From NCBI GenBank assembly GCA_035998445.1, contig DASYHQ010000018.1:310001-374000 (forward strand): a stretch of 64,000 bases of DNA, read 5' to 3'. The position numbers and the translations under genes were made by a program. The number at the start of each line of letters is the position of its first letter. Position 1 is the first letter of the stretch. Positions 41,581 to 44,110 of the stretch are shown in pieces. The notes beneath the pieces are model-generated. The model worked only from the letters and a program-made list of their open reading frames with translations, made no database searches and was not told the origin of the DNA. Source of the DNA: Tepidisphaeraceae bacterium (lineage in GTDB: Bacteria > Planctomycetota > Phycisphaerae > Tepidisphaerales > Tepidisphaeraceae).

Positions 41581-42537
41581 TCACGGGTACGGCGTCTTGC
41601 GCGGTTCGTCGCCAGGCATTTGGAGGGCGCCGACCAGGTCCGTCAGCCGTTCGATGCCCTGCTTTTGCAGGTAGTCGCTCAGGCCCGTCACCACCTTGTT
41701 CGGCGTCGCGGGGTCGACGAACAACGCCGTGCCGATGCTGACGCCGGTCGCGCCGGCCAGTACGAACTCCGCGGCATCCTGCCAGGTTTGCACGCCACCC
41801 ATACCGATGAGCGGCGTGCCCGTGTGCTTGGCGACCGTTCGATACACCCGGCTGACCAGATGCAGCGCGATCGGCTTGATCGCTGGGCCGCTCAGACCAC
41901 CGGTGACGTTCGCGAGTCGCGGGCGCTTCTTGTGGATGTCGATCGCCATCGCGGTGAACGTGTTCACCAGCGACAGCACGTCCGCCCCGCCTTCGATCGC
42001 GGCTTTGGCGGTGACCGTGATGTCCTCCACGTTCGGTGACAGCTTCACGATCAACGGCTTGCTCGGCAGCACCTTCTTCACCTCGGCCACCAACTCCTTG
42101 AGCCGACCGGGATGCGTGCCGAACGTCAGGCCGTCCTTGACGTTGGGGCACGACACGTTCAGCTCGACACCGGCGGCGCAATCGAGGCCGTTCATCGCGG
42201 CGACCGTCTCGGTGTATTCGTCGAAGCTATGGCCGGCGACGTTCACGATCACCGGGCACGGCATCTTGCGCAGCTGTGGAACCTTCTCGTCCAGGAAGCG
42301 CTTCAGGCCCACGTTGGCCAGGCCGATGGCGTTCAGCATGCCGGCGCGCGTCTCGACGATGCGCGTCGGCTCATTGCCGCGGCGTTCCTCGCGCGTGATC
42401 GACTTCGTCACGAACGCGCCAAGCTGCGACAAATCCATGAAGTCCGCGTACTCGAACGCGTACCCGCACGTGCCCGAGCAGGTCATGGTGGGGTTGGCGA
42501 GCTTCAGGCCGGCAAGGTTGATCGAAAGGTCAGGCAT
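41581..42537 (-). CDS. pyrD: Dihydroorotate dehydrogenase, class 1B catalytic subunit
   Basis: This 318-residue FMN enzyme oxidises dihydroorotate to orotate in pyrimidine synthesis. NVAGHSFDEYTETV, the catalytic Cys in VELNVSCPNV, LVNTFTAMAID and TPLIGMGGVQTWQDAAEF are typical of class 1B. The class 1B enzyme needs the PyrK electron-transfer subunit, whose gene lies just upstream (pyrK stop to pyrD start 35 nt). Start at 42537 is the ATG of MPDLSINLAG. Confidence 0.95.
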   Translation of the reverse strand: MPDLSINLAGLKLANPTMTCSGTCGYAFEYADFMDLSQLGAFVTKSITREERRGNEPTRIVETRAGMLNAIGLANVGLKRFLDEKVPQLRKMPCPVIVNVAGHSFDEYTETVAAMNGLDCAAGVELNVSCPNVKDGLTFGTHPGRLKELVAEVKKVLPSKPLIVKLSPNVEDITVTAKAAIEGGADVLSLVNTFTAMAIDIHKKRPRLANVTGGLSGPAIKPIALHLVSRVYRTVAKHTGTPLIGMGGVQTWQDAAEFVLAGATGVSIGTALFVDPATPNKVVTGLSDYLQKQGIERLTDLVGALQMPGDEPRKTPYP

Positions 42538-42572: not shown

Positions 42573-43541
42573 TTACCAGAGCAGATCGCTGCCGGCGAAC
42601 ACGGGGCCATCGGTGCAGGCCAGCTTGTATCGCCACGGGGCGGCGGCGTCGTCGGTCTTCACCTTGATGACGCAGCTCTGGCAGGTGCCCATGCCGCAGG
42701 CCATCGCGCGTTCGACCGCGATCTGCACCGGCAACTGGCGAGACGCCGCGATGTCGGCAATGCGCTTCATCATCGGTTCAGGCCCGCAGGTGTAAATTGT
42801 CGGCCGAGGCGCTGGCCCGCCGGTGGGGAAGAATTGGTCGAGGTACTGCTCCAGCGCCTGCGTGACGAACCCGCGGTAACCGTACGACCCATCGTCGGTG
42901 CTGATGACCGCCGGCACACCATGGCGGGCGAACTCGGTGATGTTCATCGCCCCGCCAACCGCCGGCGGCTCGCTTTTCGGCTCGATCGACAGCGCCAGCA
43001 AGTCGCGTGTCAGTGCCCCGCAAAACGCCACCGCCGGCGTGCCACTCAGTTGCGACGCGAGGTAAATCATCGGTGGGATACCGACGCCACCCCCGACCAG
43101 CAACGCCGTCCCACCATTCTGCGGCAGCGTGAACGTATTACCCAGCGGCCCGATGACGCTCACCGTGTCACCGACCGACAGCCGGCTGAGCCAGTCCGTC
43201 CCTACCCCCACCACGCGATGGATCAAGTCGATTTCGACGCCCTCCGCAGTGTCGCGCCGCCCCGCCAGTGAGAACGGCCGGCGCAGGATTGCGGTGCGAT
43301 CGGCGATCTCCGTTCCGCTCAACCGCGGTGGCCGGTTCTCGTCCCATTCCACTTCCGAAAGCTCATCCGGCCAGTCGGCGCACGTCACCTGCACGAACTG
43401 CCCCGGCGCCGTCACAGAGAACGAAGGCAGGCGCAGCGTAAGCTCGAAATGCTCGCGGCAGAGCGTGCGATTCACCGCGACCGTGGCATCAAACTGCCCG
43501 CGCTTCGAATTCAACTGGGGAACACTGGAACCAAAGGTCAT
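42573..43541 (-). CDS. pyrK: Dihydroorotate dehydrogenase electron-transfer subunit
   Basis: This 322-residue PyrK passes electrons from the PyrD FMN to NAD+ via FAD and a [2Fe-2S] cluster. Visible are RPFSLAGRRD and GPLGNTFTLP (flavin), LLVGGGVGIPP (NAD), and the C-terminal cluster cysteines (CGMGTCQSC and LACTDGPVF). It is first in the pyrK-pyrD operon. The upstream region carries a terminator and promoter-like site (43678-43820) that may attenuate it. Confidence 0.93.
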   Translation of the reverse strand: MTFGSSVPQLNSKRGQFDATVAVNRTLCREHFELTLRLPSFSVTAPGQFVQVTCADWPDELSEVEWDENRPPRLSGTEIADRTAILRRPFSLAGRRDTAEGVEIDLIHRVVGVGTDWLSRLSVGDTVSVIGPLGNTFTLPQNGGTALLVGGGVGIPPMIYLASQLSGTPAVAFCGALTRDLLALSIEPKSEPPAVGGAMNITEFARHGVPAVISTDDGSYGYRGFVTQALEQYLDQFFPTGGPAPRPTIYTCGPEPMMKRIADIAASRQLPVQIAVERAMACGMGTCQSCVIKVKTDDAAAPWRYKLACTDGPVFAGSDLLW

Positions 43542-43677
43542 GAGACGTGAAATACTACCACACTAAGCCGGAAACGCACCCCGCCCCAAGGCCTTGCCAC
43601 TTCAGTGCCACGATGCCTCGCGTCCGACACTGCTTCCCCTTCGCCATACCGAAGCATCACCCCAAAACCATCCGCGC

Positions 43678-43722
43678 AAAAAAAGACTTCCGGAGGGGTG
43701 GCTCCTATCCACCTCCGGAAGT
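43678..43722 (-). terminator. Strong intrinsic terminator upstream of pyrK
   Basis: On the minus strand a perfect 11-bp stem (ACTTCCGGAGG and CCTCCGGAAGT, + strand 43686-43696 and 43712-43722) is followed by a run of seven T (43678-43684). This is the clearest intrinsic terminator in the window. It lies 137 nt before the pyrK ATG, on the same strand. Confidence 0.85.
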
Positions 43723-43784
43723 GCGCCACGGCTAAGAAGCCGCAAAAACCGCATATGATTCGCGTCGAAGCACATCATCCGACG
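43678..43784 (-). ncRNA. Candidate ~107-nt small RNA or pyrKD leader
   Basis: A near-consensus promoter (43791-43820) and the strong terminator (43678-43722) bound a transcript of about 107 nt on the minus strand. It has a second possible hairpin (GGCUUCUUAGCC) ahead of the terminator. It could be an independent small RNA or the attenuated leader of pyrKD, since pyrK follows 137 nt downstream. No PyrR-binding or known leader motif is recognised. No gene is seen elsewhere in 43542-44036. Confidence 0.55.
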
Positions 43785-43790
43785 GCCGGA

Positions 43791-43820
43791 ACTATACCGG
43801 TCTTGGCGATCCCATGTCAA
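43791..43820 (-). promoter_or_regulatory. Near-consensus sigma-70 promoter (minus strand)
   Basis: On the minus strand TTGACA (complement of 43815-43820) and TATAGT (complement of 43791-43796) are separated by 18 nt. This is the best promoter match found in the window. The transcript would begin near 43784 and reach the terminator at 43678 after about 107 nt. An AT-rich stretch (about 43856-43893) lies just upstream. Confidence 0.65.
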
Positions 43821-43992
43821 CGAAACAATTATGTCGCCGCCGAAAAACGACATCGCCATAACCTATTTATTAACATATACTTATAAAAATTCCCTCTGGC
43901 CCCGTTTTCGCTAGTCGCAAGCGACGACAGCGGCTGTTATGGGCTTGTACGTATCCCCAACTTGCCACGGCGAGCCACACATGCAAACTCAC

Positions 43993-44036: not shown

Positions 44037-44110
44037 GGGCGTTTAGCTCAGTTGGCTAGAGCGCAGGTATCACACACCTGAGGTCACAGGTTCGAGCCCT
44101 GTATCGCCCA
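44037..44110 (+). tRNA. tRNA-Val (CAC)
   Basis: The 74-nt gene folds as a cloverleaf: acceptor GGGCGTT/ATCGCCC (one U-U at position 6-67), D arm GCTC...GAGC, anticodon stem CAGGT/ACCTG with loop ATCACAC giving anticodon CAC, variable AGGTC, T arm ACAGG-TTCGAGC-CCTGT. The discriminator is A and CCA is not encoded. It reads GUG codons. Confidence 0.93.

Follow-up and report, generated by a model that had tools for sequence, protein, structure and literature searches.

A class-wide small RNA family of the Phycisphaerae, often encoded ahead of pyrK and predicted to act in trans

Introduction

The window (the whole stretch of 64,000 nt that was analysed) carries on its minus strand a near-consensus promoter and a strong terminator, which bound a short transcript upstream of pyrK and pyrD. 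This arrangement raises the question of whether the transcript is a small RNA in its own right or the leader of pyrK with an attenuator, and the earlier note had left both readings standing. Few small RNA families have been catalogued for the Planctomycetes, with 8 listed for the PVC group as a whole in one survey (PMC9029176). Literature searches on small RNAs of the Phycisphaerae and on pyrK attenuation in planctomycetes returned nothing relevant. Comparison of homologous loci favoured, with fairly good confidence, a self-contained small-RNA gene belonging to a new family that spans the class; the RNA would act in trans through its conserved core, and the neighbouring pyrK would be transcribed separately.

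Results

Promoter, transcript and terminator in the window

The features of the locus were as follows.

43858..43884, minus strand: operator-like inverted repeat ATAAGTATATGTTAATAAATAGGTTAT (RTAA-N19-TTAY), presumed regulator binding site (spacing of 19 in homologous loci and genome-wide enrichment)
43791..43820, minus strand: sigma70-type promoter TTGACA-N18-TATAGT of the small RNA (consensus match and conservation in homologous loci)
43678..43784, minus strand: small RNA gene, about 107 nt (homologue search, fold, covariance model and covariation)
43763..43784, minus strand: 5' hairpin in the variable 5' part (MFE fold; sequence unconserved between genera)
43728..43743, minus strand: hairpin 1 (CGGC-loop-GCCG) with a U-rich loop of variable length (95.9% of cells paired)
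43725..43731, minus strand: invariant CCGUGGC core, in which GUGGC is an unpaired linker between the hairpins (alignments)
43686..43722, minus strand: terminator hairpin, 11 bp plus 3 bp (class-wide covariation)
43678..43684, minus strand: seven-T run of the intrinsic terminator (sequence)
43552..43560, minus strand: candidate extended -10 (TGG-TAGTAT) of pyrK, 10 nt 5' of the ATG and outside the small RNA (sequence)
42573..43541, minus strand: pyrK, a frequent but dispensable neighbour (NCBIfam dihydroorotate dehydrogenase electron-transfer subunit, below the library cut-off)
41581..42537, minus strand: pyrD (class 1B), with its start taken at MPDLSINLAG (profile match above the cut-off)

The TTGACA box (43820-43815) and the TATAGT box (43796-43791), separated by an 18-nt spacer, matched 11 of the 12 consensus positions, as the earlier note had read them. 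The transcript start was predicted at about 43784 from the promoter, and the 3' end from the U-run. The distances of 107 nt for the transcript and 137 nt to the pyrK ATG (at 43541) given in that note were both correct, and its gene names agreed with the NCBIfam assignments of pyrK and pyrD. The predicted RNA folded with a minimum free energy of -42.8 kcal/mol (z = -2.8 vs. shuffles). Its terminator, which on the minus strand reads ACTTCCGGAGG-UGG-AUAGGAG-CCA-CC-CCTCCGGAAGT (43722-43686) followed by C and seven T (43684-43678), had the strong GC stem that had been described. A simple scan of 8 kb returned 3 promoter-like sites (1.0 expected) and missed the terminator, probably owing to the CC bulge. 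A tRNA-Val (CAC) gene was located on the plus strand at 44037-44110, about 150 nt upstream of the operator and on the strand opposite to it.

Conservation and structure of the RNA

When 60 related genomes were searched by BLAST with the region, a block of 66 nt (window 43743-43678) was recovered, once per genome, from about 18 genera belonging to the same family; its identity was 85-99%. The pieces conserved in the family alignment were the promoter, the small hairpin CGGC-loop-GCCG, and the linker with the terminator hairpin, whereas the 5'-most 40-70 nt varied between genera. The conserved RNA family corresponded to the last 66 nt of the transcript of about 107 nt. Because the promoter, hairpin 1 and terminator recurred in about 18 genera of the family and across the class, chance occurrence was ruled out.

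A first covariance model, built from 18 sequences, matched the RNA in 90 of 198 class genomes, with one match in each except for a weak second match (L121) in G147, which was discarded. In the 75-sequence alignment, 97.0% of the cells were paired and 11 of 18 pairs had changes on both sides; the covariation score was 0.361, as compared with 0.135 in shuffles (0/500) and at most 0.082 in slid controls. The terminator hairpin covaried class-wide, with 11 of its 14 pairs changed on both sides, and the CCGUGGC between it and hairpin 1 was nearly invariant across the class.

A second model run over 392 genomes of the phylum matched 25, all in the same class, and none outside the class. A strict pattern searched over 84,980 species was found in 85 contigs; almost all bore planctomycete or Phycisphaerae titles, and two of them were titled "Blastopirellula" and "Kuenenia". 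No Rfam family matched at the gathering score, and the window region was unmatched even at E ≤ 5. As judged from these sequence comparisons, the RNA is an uncatalogued family conserved across the class Phycisphaerae.

The RNA contained no conserved ORF: the longest ORFs differed in start and frame, and the loop of hairpin 1 had indels. A leader peptide or small protein was ruled out, with no common frame. That the locus is an RNA gene with its own transcription unit can be stated with high confidence.

Promoter and operator across the class

A promoter matching at least 9 of the 12 consensus positions was present in 70 of 78 homologous loci, 53 of them with a 17-nt spacer. Upstream of the promoter, the inverted repeat [AG]TAA-N19-TTA[TC] occurred in 37 of 77 loci (2.0 expected), both with pyrK-linked and with unlinked copies of the RNA; spacings other than 19 were near background, and a position-weight matrix extended the match to most loci. 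The refined operator, RTAAGTNNTT-N7-AANNACTTAY (27 bp), was commoner than its reverse in most of the class genomes tested (24 vs. 0 genome-wide in G007, 22 vs. 0 in G026, 32 vs. 2 in G005, and 5 vs. 0 in the window genome). When roughly one site was sampled from each genome (L221-L249), operator sites adjoined gyrA, gyrB, fusA, sucA, uvrA, a LysR gene and an ECF sigma factor, each in single genomes. Given that the operator is distributed genome-wide and lies beside gyrA, gyrB, fusA, sucA and uvrA, a global regulator probably has the RNA among its outputs.

Linkage to and independence from pyrK

The linkage to pyrK was real and conserved. In 54 of 78 loci, the gene came immediately after the RNA in the same orientation, at a median of 37 nt past the U-run, with PyrK proteins being just 34-60% identical and the upstream neighbours varying between lineages. 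This is unusually tight for an independent small RNA and counts against the main reading. It is what would be expected of a leader with two functions, from which most transcripts would stop as small RNA and a regulated or constant fraction would read into pyrKD, pyrimidine synthesis and the small RNA being placed under one shared promoter and operator. Terminator hairpins were slightly weaker in pyrK-linked than in unlinked loci (median -21.9 vs. -25.4 kcal/mol; p = 0.014), which also favours such a leader, but the U-runs were equally good in both. An alternative antiterminator pairing, which the earlier note had proposed to look for in relatives, was not apparent as any conserved strand: the 5' part was unconserved, only about 13-20 nt were available 5' of hairpin 1 in several loci, and the distance from the -10 to hairpin 1 was just 20-26 nt in L063, L071, L085, L114 and L118.

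The RNA was also kept where pyrK was absent or distant. It was present with pyrK undetected in G017 and in G013, G046, G078, G083, G097 and G103, the last six of which kept its promoter and terminator, and often the operator. It was unlinked from pyrK in G147, G072, G036 and G030; in G147, a single contig of 7.4 Mb, the RNA mapped to 6.34 Mb and pyrK to 1.16 Mb, a coordinate difference of 5.2 Mb. In one locus (L091), pyrK was upstream on the opposite strand, divergent from the RNA, and the next gene was convergent in 8 of 22 unlinked loci. When the 21 loci without adjacent pyrK were analysed alone, 94.3% of the cells were paired, the covariation score was 0.558 vs. 0.172, and 10 of the 14 terminator pairs were changed on both sides. 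Many genomes of families f5, f11, f13 and f20 had pyrK without the RNA, and G012, of the same family as the window genome, had pyrK with no RNA ahead of it.

With the RNA occurring without pyrK and pyrK without the RNA, neither requires the other. Since the RNA persists where pyrK is missing, it is not mainly an on/off switch of pyrK, and its main function is probably independent of that gene.

Transcription of pyrK

In pyrK-linked loci, a -10 hexamer matching at least 5 of 6 positions was over-represented within about 15 nt of the pyrK ATG (12 of 46 loci vs. 1 of 46 in the control window; Fisher p = 0.0017). The candidate in the window, TGG-TAGTAT, scored 4 of 6 plus TG. In loci lacking the RNA, a -10-like hexamer was often found a few nt 5' of the pyrK ATG, and few full two-box promoters were seen; in L208-L217, where pyrK is apart from the RNA, the hexamer was often 6-13 nt 5' of the ATG. 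These positions suggest that leaderless or near-leaderless mRNAs may be common in the class.

The over-representation of the -10 makes separate transcription of pyrK plausible for many loci. Obligate read-through into pyrK, considered for the gap of only about 37 nt, was dropped on finding the -10 hexamers by the ATG. About half or more of the linked loci were without a clear -10 ahead of pyrK, as a dual-function leader would predict, and because some loci lack an evident -10 and linked terminators are slightly weaker, partial read-through is possible. Weighed against the copies kept without pyrK, the missing antiterminator strand and the presence of pyrK without the RNA in G012, a leader with two functions is nevertheless unlikely. 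The persistence of the RNA without pyrK, the class-wide promoter and operator, and the pyrK -10 together support the small-RNA alternative of the earlier note; with no conserved antiterminator, its other alternative, a pyrK leader with a new attenuation mechanism, did not hold up as the main function.

Candidate partners and mode of action

Hfq and ProQ were each detected in 0 of 61 class genomes, with positive controls. CsrA was found in 54 of 61, with 4 matches in the window genome, and was absent from all six f11 genomes listed. The RNA might in principle sequester CsrA through a GGA in its terminator loop, given the frequency of CsrA in the class, a loop ending in GGAG in family f1, and GUGGAUGA in many Sedimentisphaerales-type members. 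However, GGA motifs were not enriched in the 5' part of the RNA (63 observed vs. 75 expected), the loop GGA was missing in families f14, f19 and f3, and the invariant part is CCGUGGC rather than GGA, all of which makes titration of CsrA very improbable.

That the RNA is purely a pyrK attenuator (riboswitch, PyrR-dependent or other) with no function in trans and with relics as its unlinked copies, as its position ahead of pyrK and PyrR matches over the cut-off in 26 of 31 genomes (that of the window included) might suggest, can hardly be upheld, given that covariation is as strong in unlinked as in linked copies and that the unlinked ones have retained promoter and operator, that pyrK is downstream in just those 54 loci and missing from some genomes with the RNA, that G030 has the RNA and no PyrR match, and that the Rfam PyrR-site model did not match. 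The latter bears out the earlier observation that no PyrR-type motif is present, though the window genome does encode PyrR (G000:C43:9020-9526; L207). With PyrR encoded in most of the genomes searched, other loci of the class may be under PyrR control.

The absence of detected Hfq and ProQ, the lack of GGA enrichment, the separate occurrence of 6S RNA and the lack of a conserved ORF led to the proposal of a trans-acting RNA that works via its exposed CCGUGGC. The near-consensus sigma70 promoter, probably regulated at the RTAA-N19-TTAY operator, would drive a transcript of about 107 nt, for which the gene has an intrinsic terminator of its own. Function would reside in a core made up of the small hairpin, the invariant CCGUGGC with GUGGC single-stranded, and the U-tailed terminator hairpin. 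The RNA would most likely be a trans-acting one that needs neither Hfq nor ProQ and offers GUGGC(G) to a conserved partner, which could be a protein or a base-paired RNA, and pyrK would be a separate neighbouring transcription unit, expressed mostly from its own promoter near the ATG. Base pairing specifically through CCGUGGC is put forward tentatively. Complements of the core near or before ATG codons were no commoner than those of the reversed control. An identical 37-nt match recurred near contig ends in G004 (C52, C141, C152, C302, C309, C319 and C324), which looks like a multicopy element.

Discussion

The present analysis adds a class-conserved RNA family, with a conserved operator and a covariance model, in a class without detected Hfq or ProQ. 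It makes two questions testable, namely what partner recognises CCGUGGC and by which regulator the operator is bound, and it cautions that a promoter-terminator pair ahead of a biosynthetic gene need not be an attenuator. A broader and more doubtful view would be that of a core regulatory RNA of the Phycisphaerae, acting through CCGUGGC without Hfq or ProQ, under a regulator shared with genes of the gyrA, gyrB, fusA and sucA type, and tied to pyrK in many lineages. If true, one promoter would couple growth state, pyrimidine synthesis and post-transcriptional control in many lineages.

As compared with known systems, the RNA resembles PyrR-dependent pyr attenuators in its place upstream of a pyrimidine gene, its terminator end and the presence of PyrR in these genomes, but differs from them in that neither a PyrR site nor an antiterminator was found and in its persistence without pyrK. 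In terminator-generated leader small RNAs, attenuation of a 5' leader yields a short product with an additional function in trans; a short terminated RNA 5' of a metabolic gene is common to both, whereas here the neighbour gene is dispensable and often absent, and no ligand-sensing domain is evident. Like 6S RNA, the family is class-wide, single-copy and of housekeeping type, yet its structure differs and 6S RNA was found elsewhere in 28 of 61 class genomes tested; identity with 6S was ruled out, as there was no match. Unlike stand-alone trans-acting small RNAs, it belongs to a class without detected Hfq or ProQ, and its 3' half with CCGUGGC is conserved and its 5' end variable, but it shares with them a sigma70 promoter, a length of 80-120 nt, stem-loops, a U-tailed terminator, the lack of a conserved ORF and a class-level spread.
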